From contig JACJNW010000034.1 in assembly GCA_014695195.1 (NCBI GenBank), forward strand, positions 1 through 64,000: DNA of 64,000 nucleotides, given 5' to 3'. A model generated the notes under the pieces. The model did not search any database, was not told the origin of the DNA, and saw nothing but the letters and a program-made list of their open reading frames with translations. Source of the stretch: Cyanobacteria bacterium FACHB-DQ100. Its GTDB lineage: Bacteria; Cyanobacteriota; Cyanobacteriia; Leptolyngbyales; Leptolyngbyaceae. A program made the position numbers and the translations under genes. The first letter of the stretch is position 1. Every line of letters starts with the position of its first letter. Positions 8,323 through 31,493 of this stretch are shown in pieces.

Positions 8323-10071
8323 TCAAATAGGATTGCTATGGCTCCCCCGATTCGCTGAGGACTGTACTTCAATGCGCCGAGCCTGCACTAATCGAGCGCG
8401 TGCCGCCTCAAGCTGCCCTCCTGGATCAACGGCAACCCATCCAGAATTAGTCTTGCGACGCGCTTCATAATGCAAATGTGGGCCTGTCGAGAGTCCTGTA
8501 CTGCCAACCCGCCCGATAATCGCTCCCGGCTGAATCGTTTCCCCCGGACGCACGAAAATTTGGGACAGGTGGGCGTAAAGGGTATCTTGCGATCCATTGG
8601 ACTGCTGTAGCACGATCGCAAGTCCGTAGCCCCCCATACGATCGGCGATTTTCACTTTTCCGCCCCGCGATGCAATCACAGGGGTTCCCTGCCCTGCACC
8701 CAAATCCACGCCTGCATGAAAGCGTCGAACTCCGGTCACAGGATGCCGCCGCCAGCCAAATCGAGAAGTGACGGGAACAGGTTCAGGTAAGGGGTAAACA
8801 ATCTGACTCGTCGAATTTAACCGAGGTAAGTTGCGATTGAATGCTTGCAGGTTCTTTGGGTTAACCACTTGACCAGAGTATTCGCTAACTGCATCTGAGG
8901 CGATCGGAGCCGTTAAATCCGTTGCAGGAGGTCTTTGCTGAATGGGCAGGGAGCCGATTGCTCTTGGAACTTGAATGCTAATCGCTTGCTGAGGGCGCGG
9001 AACCCGGATCGGGATTCTCTGAGACACCGTAGAAGAGCTTCTCATCACCGCTGCGTTATTCCGTTTAGCGGCGGGTACTTTAATCGGCGTAACTCCGATC
9101 GCACGACTAGCAGATTCTAGGGAATTGATACTGCTTGAAATTTGTTCCCGTACCTCGGCTGGAATGGCTGGGTCTTGCAGCAGTTTTCTGGCTTGTTCAA
9201 ATCGTCGCTGAGTTGCATAGCTGTAAGCGCGAGCAACTAAAGTGTCACGCTGAGCCGCTTGTTTAACCGATCGATCTTTAGAGACGATATCTGCAAGGCG
9301 CTGTTCTAAAAGTTGTTTCTGCGCTTGGGTGGGAGACTGAGGAGCGGTCTGAGCAGCAGGTTTTGGAGTAGGAACTTCGATGCGATCGAGTGTCCCCGAT
9401 CGAGAGGCTTCTGGCGCAACTTGGTTTGCTGACTTTGGAACAGGAATCTCGATGCTGCTGGATGCTCTAGACCGAGGGGCTTCTGGCGCAACTTGGTTTG
9501 CTGGTTTGGGAACGGGAATCTCGATGCTGCTGGATACTCTAGACCGAGGGGCTTCTGGCTTAACTTGGTTTGCTGGCTTGGGAACGGGAATCTCGATGCT
9601 GCTGAATGTTCTTGGCTTGGCTTGTGCAGTCGGAGCAGGAGTTTCAACGGTAATAGAGGGTGAAGGAATGCTTGGAGCAGGCTTTTCCGTCGGTTTTACC
9701 GGAGCCGTTGAACTAACTTTTGGTGCAACAGGCTCATTTCTAGAAGCGGTCTGTGAATTCAGGGGTTGCGGGTTGGAGGGTGGGATAGATTGTGCAGTTG
9801 TGCGGGAGGTAAGGGCTTGAGGGACTTTTGGCAATGCAACCTTTGAGGTTACAGGCGTCGCTTGAGAAGCAGGCGTGGCAGTCGGAGATGGGGTGGGAGT
9901 GGCTACGACTGGAACGAAAACAGATTCCGGAATTGCGATCGGTGAATCTGGAGTTACAGCCGGGGTTGCAGATTGAGATTGAATCAGGGAACTAGGCTCG
10001 ATCGGTTGTGCCGGGATAGCTGTCTGCTTTAAAGGTTGTTGAGCAAGCAGCGTAGGGATGAGTTCTATCAT
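8323..10071 (-). CDS. M23 family (LytM-like) metallopeptidase with Pro/Ala repeats
   Basis: The C-terminal 140 residues form an M23 peptidase domain. FGWRRHP introduces it, HAGVD carries two zinc ligands and HLHYE supplies the others, so the active site looks intact. M23 enzymes cleave peptide cross-links of peptidoglycan. The long N-terminal part is Pro/Ala/Thr/Ser-rich, with about four copies of a 24-residue unit (SIEIPVPKPANQV...), presumably a wall-spanning linker. I see no classical signal peptide at the start (MIELIPTLLAQQPLKQ), which may mean the true start or export route differs. Confidence 0.85.
   Translation of the reverse strand: MIELIPTLLAQQPLKQTAIPAQPIEPSSLIQSQSATPAVTPDSPIAIPESVFVPVVATPTPSPTATPASQATPVTSKVALPKVPQALTSRTTAQSIPPSNPQPLNSQTASRNEPVAPKVSSTAPVKPTEKPAPSIPSPSITVETPAPTAQAKPRTFSSIEIPVPKPANQVKPEAPRSRVSSSIEIPVPKPANQVAPEAPRSRASSSIEIPVPKSANQVAPEASRSGTLDRIEVPTPKPAAQTAPQSPTQAQKQLLEQRLADIVSKDRSVKQAAQRDTLVARAYSYATQRRFEQARKLLQDPAIPAEVREQISSSINSLESASRAIGVTPIKVPAAKRNNAAVMRSSSTVSQRIPIRVPRPQQAISIQVPRAIGSLPIQQRPPATDLTAPIASDAVSEYSGQVVNPKNLQAFNRNLPRLNSTSQIVYPLPEPVPVTSRFGWRRHPVTGVRRFHAGVDLGAGQGTPVIASRGGKVKIADRMGGYGLAIVLQQSNGSQDTLYAHLSQIFVRPGETIQPGAIIGRVGSTGLSTGPHLHYEARRKTNSGWVAVDPGGQLEAARARLVQARRIEVQSSANRGSHSNPI
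9370..9610. repeat. 72-bp tandem repeats inside the M23 peptidase gene
   Basis: About three good and one degenerate copies of a 72-bp unit encode the Ser-Ile-Glu-Ile-Pro-Val-Pro-Lys module of the linker. The unit is a whole number of codons, so copy-number change would keep the frame. Confidence 0.75.
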
Positions 10072-21331: not shown

Positions 21332-22114
21332 ATGATTGTTGAAAATGGTGAAGTAATTCTGTCAGTTAAGAATCTAACTGCTGAGATTGATAGCACACCG
21401 ATTTTGAAGGGCATGAATCTCGAAATTAAAGCAGGTGAGATTCACGCGATTATGGGCCCGAATGGATCGGGAAAAAGTACCTTTTCTAAGATTCTGGCAG
21501 GGCATCCCGCTTACACGGTGACAGGCGGAGAGATTTTGTTTCATGGGCAGGATCTACTCGAACTCGAACCGCATGAGCGGGCGACTTCGGGTGTGTTTTT
21601 GGCATTCCAATATCCACTAGAAATTCCGGGCGTGACGAATGTAGATTTCTTGCGCGTGTCATATAACGCGAAACGCAAGCAGGAAGGCTTAGAAGAGTTG
21701 GATGCGTTTGATTTTGATGATGTGGTGCATTCCAAATTAGAGTTACTCAAGATGGATGCAGGCTTTCTTTCTCGTAGCGTGAACGAAGGCTTTTCGGGTG
21801 GCGAGAAGAAGCGGAATGAAATTCTGCAAATGGCATTGTTAGAGCCAAAATTAGGCATTTTGGATGAGATCGATTCTGGTTTAGATATCGATGCGTTGAA
21901 AGTCGTTGCAAATGGTGTGAACGCAATTACGACATCAGAAAATGCAACGCTTGTGATCACGCACTATCAGCGCTTATTGAATTACATTACGCCTGATTTT
22001 GTTCACGTCATGGCAGATGGACGAATTCTGCTGAGTGGCGGTAAGGAACTGGCGCTAGAGCTTGAAGCGAAAGGGTATGACTGGGTTGTTGAAGGTGAAA
22101 CGGTAGGTGCATGA
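21332..22114 (+). CDS. sufC: Fe-S assembly ATPase SufC
   Basis: This 260-residue ABC-type ATPase has no membrane domain. It shows Walker [10 protein letters not shown] (42-50), the signature [11 protein letters not shown] and Walker [17 protein letters not shown]. SufC drives conformational change of the SufBCD complex. GGAGGG precedes the ATG. The stop overlaps the sufD start. Upstream, TGAAATCTAAAAG is tandemly duplicated (21251-21276), with no assigned role. Confidence 0.95.
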
Positions 22115-23436
22115 TGGTAGAAGTTTCAGCCGTTTCTGAAATTGGAAATTCAGGCACGATCGCAACCATTGATCGCGCCGCTTACTTCAACCAATTACTG
22201 AATTTACGCTCTCCCCATTCCAAATTTCAAGACATTCGCGATCGCGCTGCGGCATCGGTTCACGATCAAGCCATTCCCTCAACTCGCGACGAAGAATGGC
22301 GTTTTACAGACGTTTCTGATTTGTTATCGCTGTCGCTGAAAATTGCTGAACCTGCGAGTTTAAGCTTTCCGCAGATTGAAGCTTTTCTGCTACCAGAAAC
22401 AGCGAATTCGCGATTAGTCTTTGTTGATGGCGTATTTGCGGCGGATTTGTCTGCGATCGACGATCTACCCGATGGCGTTGTTGTTAGCAATCTTGAAACA
22501 GTCCTGGAATTAATGCCAACTGTGAAAGACTACATTGCTAAACTTCCCGGAGAAGATGAAGTCTTCACCGCTTTGAACACCGCAAGCTTGACAGATAGCG
22601 CGATCGTCTTTGTGCCGAGAAACCAAGATGTTGAGGTTCCGATTCATTTGCTGTTTGTCTCAACTCAAGCGGAAGCGATCGTTCAACCACGTGTGTGTGT
22701 GATTGCGGAAACTGGAAGTCGAGTCACGCTAATCGAAGATTTTGTCAGCTTGACTGAGGGCGCATATTTCACCAATACCGTTACGGAGATTGCGATCGCA
22801 GAAAACGCAGAAGTTCGTCATACTAGAGTTCAGAGGGATAGCAATGCTGCCTTTCACATTGGTAGGACTGCTGTTTCGCAAGCGAGAGATTCTCGTTATT
22901 CCTGCACTGCTGTGAATTTCGGCGGCAGACTTTCTCGACACAATCTAGATGTCTATCAGACCGGAGAGCAGACCGAGACTACGCTAAACGGTTTGACCGT
23001 GATTGATGGCGATCGCATCGGCGATACACACAGTCTGCTATCGCTGAGTAAGCCGTATGGTGTGGGCAATCAAGTCCATAAGACCATTGCGAGCGATCGT
23101 GCCCATGCAATCTTTAATGGTAAGGTTTTCGTTCCTCAAGCCGCACAGCAAACCGACGCGAGACAGTTGAGCCGCAACTTATTGTTATCTCCGAAAGCGC
23201 GAGTTGATACCAAGCCTCAGTTAGAGATTGTTGCAGATAACGTCAAGTGTGCTCATGGTGCGACGGTTAGCCAGCTAGAAGACGACGAAGTGTTTTACCT
23301 CCAGAGTCGCGGTATTGATCAAGACTCAGCGCGTAAGCTCTTGACTTATGCTTTTGCGATCGAAATCATTGACCAGATTCCAGTTCCGACCTTGCGTGAT
23401 CGACTCTCTGCATTCATTCGTTCCCAACACACCTAA
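22111..23436 (+). CDS. sufD: Fe-S assembly protein SufD
   Basis: SufD is a SufB paralogue in the SufBCD complex. The 441 residues include [13 protein letters not shown] near residue 60 and the C-terminal SufBD core ([34 protein letters not shown]). The ATG at 22111 overlaps the sufC stop; an ATG one codon later is equally possible. sufS begins three bases after the stop. Confidence 0.94.
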
Positions 23437-23439
23437 GCC

Positions 23440-24702
23440 ATGACTTTCCTGCAAGAAAAAACCCTCGCTGCTCAAGTGCGATCGGACTTCCCGCTTCTGA
23501 ACGAGCGGATTCACGATAAGCCGCTAGTGTATCTCGACAATGCTGCGACTTCTCAGAAGCCGATCGCGGTTCTCGATGCTCTGCGCCACTATTATGAGCA
23601 TGACAACGCCAATGTGCATCGCGGCGCACATACCTTGAGTGCAAGAGCGACTGATGCGTATGAAGCAGCGCGGGATAAAGTTGCAGCGTTTGTAAATGCA
23701 GCATCGCGGCAGGAGATTGTTTACACCCGGAATGCGAGTGAAGCAATCAATATTGTTGCCTATGCTTGGGGGTTGAATAATTTGCAGGCAGGCGATGAGA
23801 TTGTTCTGTCTGTGATGGAGCATCATAGCAATCTGGTGCCGTGGCAGTTGATTGCAGCGCGAACGGGGGCTGTGATCAAGCACGTTCAGTTGAATGAATC
23901 GGAAGGTTTTGACTTTGAGCATTACAAGTCATTGCTCTCTGAAAAGACCAAACTGGTGTCGGTTGTCTATGTTTCCAATACTCTGGGCTGCATTAACCCG
24001 GTGCGTGAGATTTGCGCTGAAGCTCACAAGGTAGGAGCAAAAGTTCTGATCGATGCGTGTCAAGCGGTGCCGAATATGCCTGTAGATGTGCAAGCGATCA
24101 ATTGTGATTGGCTCGTCGCATCCGGTCATAAAATGTGCGCTCCGACCGGAATCGGGTTCTTGTACGGCAAGCTGGACGTTTTACGATCGATGCCTCCGTT
24201 TTTCGGTGGTGGTGAAATGATTGCCGATGTGTATTTAGACCATTCGACTTATGCTGATTTGCCGCATAAGTTTGAAGCGGGGACTCCGGCGATTGCAGAA
24301 GCGATCGCGCTCGGTGCTGCGGTTGACTATCTCACAAATATCGGCATGGACAAGATCCGAGCTTACGAAGAAGAGTTGACGGCATACCTATTCCAGCGAT
24401 TAGCAGAAGTTCCAAATCTGCGGATCTACGGACCCAAACCAGACGCGGCAGGCGGAGGACGAGCAGCCTTAGCTTCATTTACCGCCGGAGAATTGCATCC
24501 TCATGATCTTTCGACTTTGTTGGATCATGAAGGCATTGCGATCCGATCGGGACATCATTGCACTCAGCCGTTACACCGATTGTTAAATGCTCCGGGCACT
24601 GCTCGCGCTAGTTTGTATTTCTACAATACTCGCGAGGAGATCGATCGATTCATCGAAGCGCTGAAAGAGACGATCGATTTCTTTGGTGGGATTCTGGGCT
24701 AA
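23440..24702 (+). CDS. sufS: cysteine desulfurase SufS
   Basis: This 420-residue PLP enzyme takes sulfur from cysteine for cluster assembly. The PLP-binding Lys is at about residue 230 in [11 protein letters not shown], and the active-site Cys is near residue 373 in [11 protein letters not shown], the group II (SufS) form. It closes the suf operon and is followed by a terminator. No sufE is in the window. Confidence 0.95.
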
Positions 24703-24718
24703 ATTGATTTTTTGAATT

Positions 24719-24758
24719 AAAAGCGCGATCGTTCTTGACTTGCGGCGATCGCGTTTTT
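24719..24758. terminator. terminator after sufS
   Basis: CGCGATCG (24724-24731) pairs with CGATCGCG (24746-24753), flanked by an A-run and a T-run, so it can work in both directions. It contains HIP1-like sequence and touches the stop of the convergent Uma2 gene. Confidence 0.8.
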
Positions 24759-25341
24759 AGTAGAGAATTTTTTGTAAATCGAGCGTAAATCCAGGCAAAA
24801 TATCATCTGCCGAGATTGTTTTAGGAGCCTGCAATAGTTCTGTCGTTTTTCCAGGGCGGTAAACTTCAACGCATTGGTTTTGGCGATCGAGCAACCAACC
24901 TAACTTTGCTCCGTTTTCAATGTATTCGCGCATCTTCGCTTGCAGTTTTGGCAACGAGTCAGTTCTAGACCGCAATTCAATCACCACATCAGGACAAATG
25001 GGCGCAAATTTTTCCTGTTGTTCCGGCGTTAGGGCTTCCCATCGTTCTCGTCGAATCCAAGCTGCATCGGGAGCATAACTTGCGCCATTCGGAAGTGTAA
25101 ACCCGCTGGAGGAATCGAAAACTTCTCCGAGTTGGGTTTGCTCATTCCAATTGTCTATTTGCGTTGTAATTTTAGTGTTGCGTCGTCCTGACTCGCTTCC
25201 AGTCGGCGGCATAATGATGATTTCTCCCAATGCTGTGCGCTCAAACTGCAAATCCCGATTGTCTTGGCACAGTTGAAAAAACTGGTCGTCTGTTAACGCA
25301 AGAGTCAACTTTATCGAAGCTTCAGGCGTTGTGAAGGTCAT
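24757..25341 (-). CDS. Uma2 family protein (DUF820)
   Basis: This 194-residue protein belongs to the Uma2 family, abundant in cyanobacteria and related to PD-(D/E)XK nucleases. The family features are FCQDNRDLQFERTALGEIIIMPPTG, APDAAWIRRERWEAL, PDVVIELRSRTDSLPKLQAKMREYIENGAKLGWLLD-type core and the C-terminal GFTLDLQKI. The core Asp, Glu and distal acidic residues look intact. The cellular role of Uma2 proteins is unsettled. A second intact copy and a pseudogene lie elsewhere in the window. Confidence 0.85.
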   Translation of the reverse strand: MTFTTPEASIKLTLALTDDQFFQLCQDNRDLQFERTALGEIIIMPPTGSESGRRNTKITTQIDNWNEQTQLGEVFDSSSGFTLPNGASYAPDAAWIRRERWEALTPEQQEKFAPICPDVVIELRSRTDSLPKLQAKMREYIENGAKLGWLLDRQNQCVEVYRPGKTTELLQAPKTISADDILPGFTLDLQKILY

Positions 25342-25590
25342 GGCACTTGCTGAACGCTGCTAGATTAATCGTAAGTGATTCGATCGTGATTTTGCTTATA
25401 GAAATATAGGGCGCGCCCCCTTGAGAAGCAAGCACGCACCTAGTCTCTTATTTCTGCTTTTCGCTTGGCAGACTGCCTTTAAGCTTACTACATCTATTTA
25501 GCTGAGCAGGTTGTGATGTAGAGCTTTGACATGGGCAATCTTCAGCAATCTTGTTATCGCGAGAGGAATCTCTTTCGGGCTGGTTAATAA

Positions 25591-25830
25591 TTAGGTGTAC
25601 TTCTGATTGTTATTAATGATGGTAGAACTATTATCTGAAGTTGTTTCACTGTTGTTAGCTTTACTATTGTTATCTCTAGTGACGTTACTGGAGTAGTTTT
25701 CGGAGTTGTGAATATTTTTATTAATATTTGCCGTGAACGTAAAGGCACCGCAAGCCATAACTGATACCGACGCAGCTATGAAAATATTTTTCAATTTTCT
25801 TTTCATTGTGGTTCTCGATTTTTCTCTCAT
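25591..25830 (-). CDS. small secreted Asn/Ser-rich protein
   Basis: This 79-residue product has a basic N-terminus, a hydrophobic segment (IFIAASVSVMACGAFTF) and a tail very rich in Asn, Ser and Thr. VMAC resembles a lipobox weakly, so it may be a lipoprotein or a cleaved secreted peptide. The ATG at 25830 is preceded by AGGAG at good spacing. No family recognised. Base composition is AT-richer than the neighbours. Confidence 0.55.
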   Translation of the reverse strand: MREKSRTTMKRKLKNIFIAASVSVMACGAFTFTANINKNIHNSENYSSNVTRDNNSKANNSETTSDNSSTIINNNQKYT

Positions 25831-25988
25831 ATGGTCTAATCTCCTATTGTTTGGTGCTAACTTTGCAGTTCTCAACTTTCTTCTACAGTCTGATTCCGTA
25901 CTGTTTGATATAAAATTTTGCTCGCATTCGTTATTAAACATTTTTCTCCATAAAACCAATATTAAACAGAAGCAGCCCTCGAAAGACA

Positions 25989-26016
25989 AAGACCTGGCTT
26001 ATTCCAACCAGGTCTT
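25989..26016 (+). terminator. hairpin near the GroEL-tail remnants
   Basis: AAGACCTGG pairs with CCAGGTCTT around a 10-base loop and is followed by CTTCTTATTC on the plus strand. The orientation suits a plus-strand terminator, but no plus-strand gene is evident; it may simply be part of the insertion scar. Confidence 0.4.
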
Positions 26017-26035
26017 CTTCTTATTCAATTGAAAA

Positions 26036-26138
26036 ATCGACCTTTCTTTGGATCTAGAGCTAGATTAACCAGAATTTGCGGGATTGGGTTTGTAATTCGC
26101 AAATTAATTGCAAATTTATTTAGAAATCGAAATCAGCC
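26036..26138. repeat. GroEL-tail flank repeat, copy 1
   Basis: About 103 bases align without gaps to a second copy 169 bases away. Shared landmarks are TTTCTTTGGATCTAGAGC, AGATTAACC and CGCAAATTAATTGCAAA. The copy includes the end of a decayed groEL reading frame. Confidence 0.85.
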
Positions 26139-26206
26139 ATATCACTATCAGCGCCATCTTTCGGCTTATGTTTATCCACCACGCTACACCCGGTAAGCAG
26201 AACCAT
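26120..26206 (-). pseudogene. GroEL C-terminal remnant
   Basis: On the minus strand 28 codons read MVLLTGCSVVDK...KPKDGA...MADFDF and then stop. The intact GroEL one kilobase away ends [19 protein letters not shown]...MGDFDY, so this is the last part of another or older groEL, lacking the Gly/Ala-rich run. Nothing upstream of the MVL codons is kept. It lies on the far side of xisH-xisI from the intact gene. Confidence 0.8.
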
Positions 26207-26307
26207 CGATCTTTCTTTGGATCTAGAGCCAGATTAACCGAAATTTGCAGAATTAATTTCGTGATTCGCAAATTAATTGCAAAATTGTTTAGAGATCGAA
26301 GTCAGCA
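26205..26307. repeat. GroEL-tail flank repeat, copy 2
   Basis: This is the second copy of the 103-base repeat. On the minus strand, 26306-26289 still reads ADFDL-stop, so only the last few codons of the GroEL tail are present here. It begins 24 bases after the xisI stop. Confidence 0.85.
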
Positions 26308-26330
26308 GTCGAACATCAATCGTTCTGAGA

Positions 26331-26672
26331 TTACGCGATCGCAAAATCTGTATACTGCCGAACGTCTGGTGGTTGAAATCCAAGCACAATGTCTGTCGCC
26401 GGAATTCCTGCTGTAAGTAAATCGTCTACAACGCATAAATCTGTCCAATCTTCTTCAACCCAAACCTTATCGTTTTTGATTCGGATGTAAATTGTGATGT
26501 GTCGAACTCTTTTTTTGTTTTGCCAACCCGATCGAAACCAGAGATACTGATCACGCTCCTCATCGAATGCCAGTAAGCTTTCGACTTCATCATCGGGAGA
26601 ATGTGGAACTAGATTCTGATAACCAGTCAAAACTTGTTTAATAATCGTCCGGTACTGGATCAGTTTGTCCAT
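26331..26672 (-). CDS. xisI: XisI family protein
   Basis: This 113-residue protein is of the XisI family, named from fdxN-element excision in heterocystous cyanobacteria. Visible features are the start MDKLIQYRTIIKQVL, DEERDQYLWFRSGW and the ending GIPATDIVLGFQPPDVRQ. It overlaps the upstream xisH by 13 bases, and the pair is nearly always found together. In most genomes these pairs have no fdxN element, so excision control cannot be assumed. The module lies between groEL and GroEL-tail remnants. Confidence 0.9.
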   Translation of the reverse strand: MDKLIQYRTIIKQVLTGYQNLVPHSPDDEVESLLAFDEERDQYLWFRSGWQNKKRVRHITIYIRIKNDKVWVEEDWTDLCVVDDLLTAGIPATDIVLGFQPPDVRQYTDFAIA

Positions 26673-27076
26673 TGCACAATGACCTCGTTTGTAGTGTCGA
26701 TCACGATCAGGAAAATTTGGTTCTGCTCAATTATGGTTTGAATTGCTTTGAGCTGGAAGAAGCTGTTAAAAACTTCTTCACGAATTGCGAGATAGACTTG
26801 TCGATCAGGATCAGTAAGCGTGAGAAAACTACGATAGATAATGTACTGCCCCAGTGCAAGTTCTAAATCTCGAACTGGAGAAGGACTAATAAAGCTTTTA
26901 ACCTCTACTGCAATTTTCCTAGCATCCCGTTCAGCCGCAAATAGCTTTGTTGCTGCCATATCTGCATAAACCTGAATTTCTTCGTATTCAATCGTCAGCG
27001 GATCTTTTGTAATTATCCAACCATCCTTGCTCAAAGCATTTTTCATCGCATCGTGATACAAATCTTTGGCAGGCAT
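26660..27076 (-). CDS. xisH: XisH family protein
   Basis: This 138-residue partner of XisI reads MPAKDLYHDAMKNAL, then GWIITKDPLTI and KIAVEVKSF. D25 with E58-V-K60 looks like a PD-(D/E)XK nuclease-type core, and the family is thought to be related to these nucleases. It was identified as required for fdxN-element excision in Anabaena. Here it follows groEL by 100 bases, behind groEL's terminator. Confidence 0.9.
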   Translation of the reverse strand: MPAKDLYHDAMKNALSKDGWIITKDPLTIEYEEIQVYADMAATKLFAAERDARKIAVEVKSFISPSPVRDLELALGQYIIYRSFLTLTDPDRQVYLAIREEVFNSFFQLKAIQTIIEQNQIFLIVIDTTNEVIVQWTN

Positions 27077-27119
27077 GGTTTACAGGTTTTTCTTGGTTTG
27101 TAGAAAGTTTTTGATAGCA

Positions 27120-27159
27120 AAAAGCGCGATCGCTCCCTTTCAAGAACGATCGCGCTTTC
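27120..27159 (-). terminator. intrinsic terminator of groEL
   Basis: On the minus strand a 12-bp stem, AAAGCGCGATCG with its complement, encloses 14 bases and ends in five T residues, about 20 bases beyond the groEL stop. It separates groEL transcription from xisH. Confidence 0.8.
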
Positions 27160-27176
27160 AGTTTTAGAGACTCAAA

Positions 27177-28841
<1,665 letters not shown>

Positions 28842-28867
28842 TTACAGAAAAGAGAGAGTCAAGAAAA

Positions 28868-29179
28868 CTATGAAACGACTGCCAGAATGTCTTTTTCAGA
28901 CAGCAAAACGTAATCGTCGCCACCGAGTTTGATGTCGGTTCCGGCATACTTGGAGTACAGCACTTTATTACCGACTTGCACTTCCATGGGCTGACGTTCG
29001 CCCTTCTCGTTGAGCTTGCCATTACCAACCGCTACGATTTCGCCAACTTGGGGCTTTTCTTTAGCGTTGTCGGGCAAGATGATGCCGCCTGCGGTTTTTT
29101 CTTCAGCTTCGCTCACTTTCACGAATACGCGATCGCCCAACGGTGTTACGGTGGACACGCTAAGAGAGATGGCTGCCAT
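28868..29179 (-). CDS. groES: co-chaperonin GroES
   Basis: This 103-residue co-chaperonin includes [20 protein letters not shown], the mobile loop [14 protein letters not shown] and the C-terminal [20 protein letters not shown] lies six bases before the ATG. It is the first gene of groES-groEL. Confidence 0.96.
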
Positions 29180-29306
29180 ACAAATCCTCCAACAATCTAG
29201 ATGAGCAACAAACGATCAAATACTTGCGGCTGAATACATGATTCAACCGGGTCGCCTGTCGGTTTTTTTCAACGTTTACCAGTCTACAGGCTTTTGGAGT
29301 TTTGAG

Positions 29307-29333
29307 TTAGCACTCTCGCTCCCTGAGTGCTAA
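29307..29333. promoter_or_regulatory. CIRCE operator of groES-groEL
   Basis: TTAGCACTC, nine bases, GAGTGCTAA: a perfect match to the CIRCE inverted repeat bound by HrcA. It sits about 130 bases upstream of groES and implies heat-inducible repression. Confidence 0.93.
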
Positions 29334-29468
29334 TTTAGCGAAGCCAGCGATCGAATGCAACTTTAGAAAGAGTACGGCTTACCGAACGAAGGGGTTGCGG
29401 AAGGAACGATGACGATTATCGGGCTGCTCAAGGTATTCTGATTGAGAGATTGCTGTTTTAAGGGTGTT

Positions 29469-29969
29469 ATGCAAGTTCGAGCGGAAAGACTGGAAGATAT
29501 CGAAGCAGTCCGTCGAGTAAATATTGCTGCGTTTGGGCAATCGGGAGAGGCAGATTTAGTCGATCGATTGCGCCCCATTACCCCAACCCTTTCCCTTGTT
29601 GCAGTTGCATCCGATCAAATTGTTGGGCACATCTTCTTTAGTCCAGTTGCGATCGACAACACTGCTCTATTTATTTTCGGACTTGCACCGGTCGCAGTTC
29701 TACCCAATTATCAGCGACAAGGCATTGGAACATTGCTGATTCAACAGGGTTTAACGGAGTGCGATCGCTTAGGCTGCAAAGCGGTTGTCGTGCTAGGTCA
29801 TCCTGAATATTATTCGCGCTTTGGGTTTATTCCAGCTAAGCGTAAGGGATTGAGATGTGAGTACACAGTCCCAGATGAAGCGTTTATGGTGCTGGAGTTA
29901 GAAAGCGGTGTATTAGATAGCTGCGAGGGAATTGTGAGATATCGATCGGAGTTTAATGCTCTGGAATAA
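29469..29969 (+). CDS. GNAT family N-acetyltransferase
   Basis: The 166-residue product carries the acetyl-CoA-binding motif VLPNYQRQGIGTLLIQQGL and, further on, GHPEYYSRFGFIPA, typical of YhbS-like GNAT enzymes. The acceptor is unknown. The ATG at 29469 begins the conserved part (MQVRAERLEDIEAVRRV); nine extra upstream codons are open but unlikely. It is divergent from groES. Confidence 0.87.
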   Translation: MQVRAERLEDIEAVRRVNIAAFGQSGEADLVDRLRPITPTLSLVAVASDQIVGHIFFSPVAIDNTALFIFGLAPVAVLPNYQRQGIGTLLIQQGLTECDRLGCKAVVVLGHPEYYSRFGFIPAKRKGLRCEYTVPDEAFMVLELESGVLDSCEGIVRYRSEFNALE

Positions 29970-30079
29970 TGATCTCAATAGGATTCAGTCAGCTTCTCGA
30001 TAACTCACCATTGGGGTGATACATTCACGCTTGCAAGAATTTAAATTGGGTCAAAGTTCGTATCAGGAGCAATCTAATC

Positions 30080-30274
30080 ATGCTGAGTGGTAGTGATACT
30101 ATGCTTGACCAAGACTGGTTCGATCGTGGAAAAGAGGATGCCTGGGCGGGTCGATCGAAGAATCCCCCAGAGCATGACCCACAAGCCGCCAGTTTTTACG
30201 ATCTGGGCTACAGCGAAGGAGAAATCGAACGTCCGCCCGTCAGCCTATCGCCTGATGTCGAAAGCCAACCTTAG
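30080..30274 (+). CDS. small conserved-looking hypothetical protein
   Basis: This 64-residue soluble protein contains WFDRGKEDAWAGRSKNPPEH and ASFYDLGYSEGEIERPP, a pattern I associate with small cyanobacterial proteins of unknown function. AGGAG precedes the ATG by ten bases. Its stop overlaps the stop of the convergent kinase gene by four bases. Confidence 0.7.
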   Translation: MLSGSDTMLDQDWFDRGKEDAWAGRSKNPPEHDPQAASFYDLGYSEGEIERPPVSLSPDVESQP

Positions 30275-31203
30275 AGCGCTTTCGTTGCCTTGAGCATGTG
30301 ATACACAATCAACAATTGCGTCATGGCTAAGGGATAGCTCTGGATCATCTCGCCCGTGGTTCCCGATACCTTCCCGAGTTCAGTATCACCAGTCGGATTG
30401 CACACATTCGACAGTGCCGGAAGCTCATCGCAAATAAAGTGCTCTAGATCCACAACCTGATCTTTTGTTGCGTGTCCGTCAATCTCCAACACATCGACAG
30501 GTTTACTCATATCGCGATCGAGTCCCAATCGAATCGCTGATCGTGTGGGTGCGTCATCCCCAACCACTCGCGTCAGCTCCGGATGCGGAATCGTAGGACG
30601 TAGCACCAATTTCACATTTAAGTGACCATTCACATTCGGAGACGGCTCCGGTGGACAAAAGCTGACGACCATATCCGCCCAAGCCCGTTGCGGACGAATA
30701 TACTCGGCTGAATCCGGTTCGCGCTTGCGTAACTCTTCTAAAACTTGCTCTTCGGTGTAACCCCGTTTTTGCGTATCGCGTTTAATTTTCCATTGCGCTC
30801 TCAGGGATTCTGGCGGCGCAAGGTATACCTTCACGTCATAGCAATCGCGGGCTGTACGAGTCGAATACCCTAGCAAGCCTTCGATAATGATGAAGCGATT
30901 CGGCTTGATATAGGTGGGGGCTTCAAACGTTCCAGTCTTGTGGCTGTAATTTGGCTTGAGAATGGGCTGACCCGATCGCAACAGCGCTAAATGCTGCTGC
31001 ATAATGTCTAGATGATTACAGTCCGGGTGCAGGGCAGTGATGCCAATCTGAGCGCGTTGAGCGCGATCGTACTTGTGATAATCATCGGTGCAAATGATCG
31101 TTACGTTCTCTTCACCCAGCACTTGAGCAATTCCACGAGTTAGCGTCGTCTTCCCAGCCGCACTATCGCCAACGATACCAAGAATAATTGGGCGCTGTGA
31201 CAT
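30271..31203 (-). CDS. phosphoribulokinase/uridine kinase family protein
   Basis: The 310-residue product has Walker A GDSAAGKTT near the start and TDDYHKYDRAQRAQIGITAL, like phosphoribulokinase. It also has LKPNYSHKTGTFEAP and IIEGLLGYSTRTARDCYDV. The Calvin-cycle PRK of cyanobacteria usually reads DDYHSLDR and GLHPLYD, so this looks like the separate PRK-like paralogue. The substrate is therefore uncertain. The ATG at 31203 is preferred over a start 15 codons earlier. Confidence 0.75.
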   Translation of the reverse strand: MSQRPIILGIVGDSAAGKTTLTRGIAQVLGEENVTIICTDDYHKYDRAQRAQIGITALHPDCNHLDIMQQHLALLRSGQPILKPNYSHKTGTFEAPTYIKPNRFIIIEGLLGYSTRTARDCYDVKVYLAPPESLRAQWKIKRDTQKRGYTEEQVLEELRKREPDSAEYIRPQRAWADMVVSFCPPEPSPNVNGHLNVKLVLRPTIPHPELTRVVGDDAPTRSAIRLGLDRDMSKPVDVLEIDGHATKDQVVDLEHFICDELPALSNVCNPTGDTELGKVSGTTGEMIQSYPLAMTQLLIVYHMLKATKAL

Positions 31204-31493
31204 GATCGCTTCTACACCTTCGAGAATTAGGTTTGACTCTAGAAACATCCTAAGCGGTGAGGGAATCTAGTTTTGCTCAAGAATCATTACGACTCCTCGA
31301 AGCGCAAATGGAGCGAACGAAAGCAATGCTGCATATTATATTTCCAATAGCCACTTTGAGGTATCATTGAGTAGAATCTATAACAACCCCGCTAAGATAT
31401 ATTTCGTCTTCTGTCTTTGTATTTAGTATCCTGAAAGCGGCGACTCCTCTTCACCTGAAGTTTTCCTGCCGCAGTCACTACACTCTACACCCT

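Follow-up and report, generated by a model that had tools for sequence, protein, structure and literature searches.

In Anabaena, xisH and xisI are required for excision of a large element, the fdxN element, by the recombinase XisF (PMC4853749 and PMC4874684, as excerpted), and in nonheterocystous strains their function has been described as still to be disclosed (PMC2674450, as excerpted). In the window analyzed here, a stretch of 64,000 nucleotides (nt) of cyanobacterial DNA, a gene pair of the same two protein families stands alone behind groEL, with no xisF seen next to it, whereas the fdxN element is excised with XisF. The pair lies between an intact groEL and remnants of a groEL 3' end, which raises the question of how it came to be there. 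The features of the locus are as follows.

28868 to 29179, minus strand: groES, an open reading frame (ORF) named from its translation alone
27177 to 28817, minus strand: groEL, intact (PF00118, 5e-80)
27121 to 27158, minus strand: terminator-like hairpin 3' of groEL (inverted repeat I11)
26660 to 27076, minus strand: xisH, first gene of the probably inserted pair (PF08814, 1.3e-55; 187.7 bits, curated cutoff 25, full-length)
26331 to 26672, minus strand: xisI, second gene of the probably inserted pair (PF08869, 7.3e-42; 142.7 bits, curated cutoff 25, full-length)
26289 to 26303, minus strand: final codons of a decayed groEL tail (ADFDL-stop), directly 3' of xisI (repeat family D3)
26200 to 26306, no strand assigned: duplication unit nearer xisI, consisting of tail end and flank (84% over 107 nt)
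26120 to 26206, minus strand: decayed groEL tail of 28 codons plus stop (DNA alignment; protein match with E = 0.0032)
26031 to 26137, no strand assigned: the other duplication unit (84% over 107 nt)

The outer decayed tail translates as MVLLTGCSVVDKHKPKDGADSDMADFDF-stop on the minus strand (26206-26120). Its DNA aligned to the groEL 3' end with a score of 30, compared with 9.8 ± 1.7 and a maximum of 19 for 1,000 dinucleotide-preserving shuffles, and the groEL-like remnant proposed there by a sequence-only reading of the locus is thus real; a repeat search likewise matched 26149-26206 in the remnant to 27224-27281 in intact groEL (58 nt at 76%). The partial duplication 169 bp apart that the same reading had noted, with ADFDL-stop behind xisI, is present as two units of 107 nt each (26031-26137 and 26200-26306, 84% identical, spacing of 169 nt), and of the groEL tail, the unit nearer xisI retains just the final codons. 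With Pfam matches for XisH, XisI, and GroEL, the layout as first described, with xisH-xisI between intact groEL and groEL 3' remnants, stands. The ∼80 nt after each decayed tail differ from the hairpin sequence (27121-27158) that follows intact groEL. A whole extra groEL that decayed in place was ruled out, as the copies found are short tails, the remnant in the window being a tail of 87 nt.

Three further observations were made in the window. No module lies between the two copies of the 169-nt-spaced duplication, which may have arisen by simple tandem duplication or may mark a module since lost. A copy of the groEL hairpin (85% over 39 nt) is located at 24720-24758 in the opposite orientation, behind a sufS-like gene. 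Finally, a Uma2 gene (PF05685; 24757-25341) adjoins the decayed tails, and 79 Uma2 matches were counted in the genome to which the window belongs.

Across the genus, a partial copy of the groEL tail was found directly behind a module in five of eight genomes (G000, which is the genome of the window, G002, G004, G006, and G007), and this supports insertion at the groEL 3' end. The module before the tail copy is xisHI in G000, G004, and G007 and a pair encoding an AAA ATPase and a DUF3226 protein in G002 and G006, i.e., duplicated gene ends bracket modules, and different modules occur at the same groEL position. The ATPase matched PADLOC model PDC-M38A (5e-88; AbiLi and AriA more weakly), and the DUF3226 protein matched PDC-M38B (1e-71); DUF3226 is present in three of the eight genomes, in two of them at groEL. 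The least decayed case is G004, in which 179 nt at 87% identity flank the xisHI module on both sides, the duplicated stretch (∼180 bp) spanning groEL from about codon 510 through the terminator. The tail copies of G000, G002, G006, and G007 are shorter or decayed relative to it (44 nt at 84% in G007). At this site, the duplicated part generally comprises about the last 110 to 130 nt of groEL and the hairpin behind it, and the hairpin was copied along with the tail in G004 and G006. In the other three genomes, xisHI is followed by 69 nt at 80% that are mostly terminator, with no copy of the groEL tail (G003), xisHI is present at groEL without a repeat (G001), or a 59-nt xisH remnant lies at groEL without a repeat (G005). 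A 29-residue ORF beside the G005 remnant recalls the start of a transposase and gave no Pfam match. No module-free groEL site with a single tail was seen among the eight genomes. The xisH genes of G001 and G003 contain an internal stop, and the number of XisH matches per genome ranges from 2 to 13 in all eight genomes. In the xisI tree, G000, G001, G004, and G007 fall into one supported group (95/98), together with two copies from elsewhere; xisI of G003 lies outside this group on a long branch.

From these data, we consider it probable that a two-gene module entered at the groEL 3' end long ago and that its entry duplicated the end of the target gene. The earlier proposal that an xisHI element had entered at the groEL 3' end and displaced the tail is supported as to module entry and displaced tail, seen in five of eight genomes, and is not supported as to a special tie of groEL tails to xisHI, the module in G002 and G006 being another one. 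Relatives lacking xisHI and carrying the remnant, which that proposal had regarded as evidence against itself, were found in part: at groEL, xisHI is missing in G002 and represented only by xisI fragments in G006, and both genomes have the tail copy, each behind another module.

XisH is present in 135 of 242 genomes of the class. To survey flanking repeats, regions were taken from the genus (40) and from the class (80, which were among the best-scoring and not a random choice). An xisH-xisI pair was obtained at 122 of 128 loci, yielding 124 distinct modules (3 of the 127 module rows were duplicates); no pair was obtained at L250, L251, L321, and the groEL loci of G002, G005, and G006. The 400 nt upstream of each module were compared with the 400 nt downstream (E < 1e-5), and 318 ORFs from the same loci served as controls. 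Direct repeats bracket 16 of the 124 distinct xisHI modules, compared with 6 of the 318 control ORFs (p = 1e-5). Weak among the 16 are L329, with short tandem repeats, and L342 and L355, with repeats of 34 to 38 nt; minus these three rows, 13 of 124 modules carry direct repeats (p = 2e-4), and when the three positive groEL rows are also removed, 10 of 121 do (p = 0.003). At this sensitivity, 108 of the 124 modules showed no direct repeat, and inverted repeats at the same cutoff were found at none of the 127 module rows and at 1 of the 318 controls. Two bracketed cases were seen by other means and are not counted among the 16: L215, missed by the scan because its xisH is broken and the start misplaced, and the groEL locus of G004, missed because the upstream copy lies beyond the 400-nt window. 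L218 was dropped as a clean example, since its repeat is dispersed in several genomes; it is still counted within the 16. In viral contigs, nine stretches fit an XisH pattern, and none was a relative.

The bracketing repeats consist of local sequence: the hsdS 3' end (Methylase_S) at L214, the 3' part of a long ORF at L314, the end of a short ORF at L294 and L304, and the start of the downstream gene at L293. In 12 of the 16 repeat-bracketed modules, the downstream copy begins ≤50 nt from the xisI stop. At L293 (genome G213), the upstream repeat, located just before xisH, includes the region around the start codon of the downstream gene, and this region is in frame with xisH, which may therefore use a start borrowed from that gene. 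The six controls with repeats include a DUF4058 gene, a Uma2 gene, and a pair of duplicated neighboring genes. At control locus L219 (oriented coordinates 9160-9922), the DUF4058 gene is bracketed by 118 nt at 86% that represent the 3' end of the upstream gene, suggesting that other cargo may insert likewise; as such control genes (DUF4058, Uma2) are also bracketed, the signature is not exclusive to toxin-type pairs. As a separate observation, the HIP1-like word CGATCG was found ≤12 nt from 19 of 60 repeat edges at 15 xisHI loci (9 of 30 module-side edges and 10 of 30 outer edges), compared with a fraction of 0.081 of random windows, an excess that is possibly alignment bias, because alignment edges favor common words.

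If modules are inserted with a duplication of their target, relatives without the module would have the target in single copy. Apart from L218 with its dispersed repeat, filled and empty sites were compared at two loci. The region of L293 was searched in 39 genomes of its genus, and 21 were compared (G213 and 20 others). Four are filled, with the order repeat-xisHI-repeat (G213, G288, G281, and G261), and 13 have one copy and no xisHI there. Among these 13, both flanks meet in the single copy in G263, G283, and G279 (overlaps of 96, 96, and 90 nt), the upstream flank matches over just its last 26 nt in G274 and G278, and the upstream flank is different in the remaining eight. The last four genomes are mixed: in G290, xisHI is accompanied only by the downstream copy; in G260 and G270, xisHI is fragmentary and there is one copy; and G282 has one copy and a rearranged upstream flank. 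In 12 of these 13 genomes, the single copy resembles the downstream (native) copy more than the upstream one, the exception being G277; the comparison for G276 and G294 was made over part of the copy.

The second locus carries a PIN pair in G000 (C28:918158-920458, entered as L427 and L482), and the gene before it is one that we take to be ureF from its sequence. The 3' end of this gene is copied behind the PIN pair (106 nt; 94% over 97 nt). The site is filled in G004, with both copies present, and empty in G006, where one copy runs into the downstream flank and the matches overlap by 94 nt. G001 and G003 have the PIN pair, with no downstream copy seen in the match, and G002, G005, and G007 have one copy, no pair, and another downstream neighbor. 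Module-free relatives thus have single-copy sites at two loci other than groEL (L293 and ureF).

Direct repeats were detected at 6 of the 26 PIN loci of the genus that were scanned, out of 30 (L428, L429, L442, and L449 were left out, L449 being already known to have repeats). Minus a tandem pair, 4 of 24 PIN loci have direct repeats, compared with 8 of 301 controls in the same window size (p = 0.008). For Uma2 genes, 28 of 30 loci of the genus were entered, 2 were dropped for short flanks, and flanking direct repeats were seen at 0 of 26. Beyond groEL, the signature is thus present at a minority of xisHI pairs and at some toxin pairs with a PIN domain (VapC type).

Taken together, the repeats, the empty sites, and the stacking of modules fit insertion with long target duplication, a process that Nobusato et al. 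(2000) and Furuta et al. (2010) reportedly described for restriction-modification genes. We read the present cases as its extension to xisHI and PIN pairs and infer that the change is gain of a module, not loss. After insertion, one tail copy would complete groEL, and the other would be redundant and decay; in the window, the displaced tail would have decayed and part of it would have been copied once more. Host recombination or repair would presumably join the ends, one guided by homology and the other illegitimate, and a break made by XisH would perhaps help the joining. Homologous recombination with an illegitimate second joint and repair of a staggered break would give the same product. 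In the available excerpts of the published work on restriction-modification genes, the duplications are ∼100 bp (PMC3874152 and PMC3031569), and the likeness extends to a small gene complex without a known mobile element, long direct repeats of variable length around that size, and a single copy in genomes without the complex. The present cases differ in cargo (xisHI, a PIN toxin pair, or the ATPase-DUF3226 pair, rather than a restriction-modification system) and in host (cyanobacteria), and the process is known here from sequence rather than from observed movement.

The strongest competitor of insertion with target duplication is cassette exchange by homologous recombination, in which an incoming module between two gene-end copies recombines with either of them, so that modules swap and stack with no new duplication. 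Different modules between like tails in the genus would be expected from it, as would modules that stack, which is concluded from a further xisI behind the tail copy in G004 and xisI fragments there in G006. A series in G003 (C901) has the same look, with an xisI remnant, a repeat copy, a small gene without a family match together with a PIN gene (PF01850), and a second repeat copy. The repeat in this series is the sequence that brackets xisHI at L218 in G004, and we do not rely on the series because that sequence is dispersed. Moreover, sequence identity does not clearly place the displaced tails nearest to the groEL of their own genome and does not single out one of the two as the native copy, so later exchange between existing tails at groEL is likely. 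Such exchange accounts for later turnover, but not for the first duplication nor for single insertions at unrelated genes, and as an explanation of the locus itself we regard it as possible though somewhat doubtful.

The proteins bear on a bolder version of the insertion scheme. XisH was previously identified as a member of the PD-(D/E)XK family (PMC1189080, as excerpted), and in our alignment, D39 is conserved in 111 of 115 rows and E58 and K60 in 115 of 115, with Q77 and Y81 also conserved; XisH, a predicted nuclease, thereby shows the D and ExK active-site residues of the PD-(D/E)XK family. Relatives of the two families in the PDB are 2okf and 2inb and 2nwv, 2nvm, 2nlv, and 3d7q. It is conceivable, although we think it unlikely, that xisH-xisI is a self-mobilizing selfish pair, in which XisH would break gene ends and host repair would insert the pair between copies of the target. 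Together with PIN toxin pairs and ATPase-DUF3226 pairs, it would then belong to a class of minimal mobile units that use no transposase to spread through cyanobacteria and do no damage to the genes in which they settle. The favored insertion reading itself includes that the pairs would persist like addiction or defense modules. They resemble VapBC-like type II toxin-antitoxin systems in having two small adjacent genes and in the bracketing of 4 of 24 PIN loci by gene-end duplications, whereas toxin or antitoxin activity of XisH or XisI was not found in the excerpted literature. Bracketing gene-end repeats were not mentioned in the available portions of the xisH/xisI literature, and nothing on toxin-antitoxin pairs with target duplication appeared in titles and the beginnings of abstracts, neither of which proves absence from print.

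A further alternative is site-specific integration, with the groEL 3' end serving as attB, the integrase lost or acting in trans, and the elements carrying a copy of the groEL tail. Staphylococcal chromosomal islands set the precedent: in the excerpted account, their integration site is the 3' end of groEL, of which the last 18 bp overlap the att site, and the gene is not altered by the event (PMC8125051). They share with our locus the position and the intact gene and, to the extent of that account, show that the groEL 3' end can be entered harmlessly by another, integrase-driven route; they differ in that integrase, the 18-bp overlap, and the large size of the islands. The nearly identical groEL position at which the displaced tail starts in G002, G004, G006, and G007 is also in keeping with an attachment site. 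However, no integrase or recombinase was found among the window genes tested (21332-31248, leaving out groES and 30080-30274, with one ORF without a family) and no integrase among the module genes tested in G002, G003, G004, and G006; the repeats range from tens to ∼180 nt and differ between sites; and xisHI is found in many unrelated targets. Site-specific integration is therefore quite improbable.

Whether groEL tails are attachment sites for xisHI in particular, as the sequence-only reading had suggested, was addressed with the last 42 GroEL residues, which were searched in 42 family genomes, including the 8 from the genus. Extra groEL tails were recovered in the genus only (G000, G002, G004, and G006; the short G007 copy was missed by this protein search), and none was found in the 34 other genomes, which are more distant and have single tails. 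Outside the genus, matches up to E = 0.02 fall within long frames that resemble GroEL, and the few matches weaker than these (E of 0.1 to 0.8, 35 to 44% identity) look like chance. Nor was xisHI seen near groEL outside this genus among the groEL loci compared (three sets of up to 30, 80, and 30 loci, with flanking sequence of 1.5 to 7 kb). With no tail copies outside the genus in the family survey and other modules at the site, a dedicated groEL attachment site for xisHI was ruled out: the ATPase-DUF3226 pair is also there, and other xisHI pairs are bracketed by other gene ends. The groEL end is a hotspot of this genus. Coincidence, in which the groEL tail was tandemly duplicated otherwise and the module came between the copies by chance or by later insertion, can point to the module-free duplication of a tail unit in the window, but it is highly improbable given tail copies behind modules in five of eight genomes and bracketing that recurs at other genes in significant excess over controls.

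For the genus, insertion with target duplication means that an essential gene such as groEL can receive new genes at its end and remain unharmed, and the tail-duplicating signature suggests a way for such pairs to enter a gene and leave it whole. With the filled and empty sites identified here, the process can be put to the test. In the excerpted literature, xisH and xisI are described as helpers of fdxN excision, yet several XisH matches occur in every one of the eight genomes of the genus. The bracketing repeats show the places at which xisHI pairs arrive and the manner of their arrival, and they group these pairs in their behavior with restriction-modification and toxin-antitoxin pairs.
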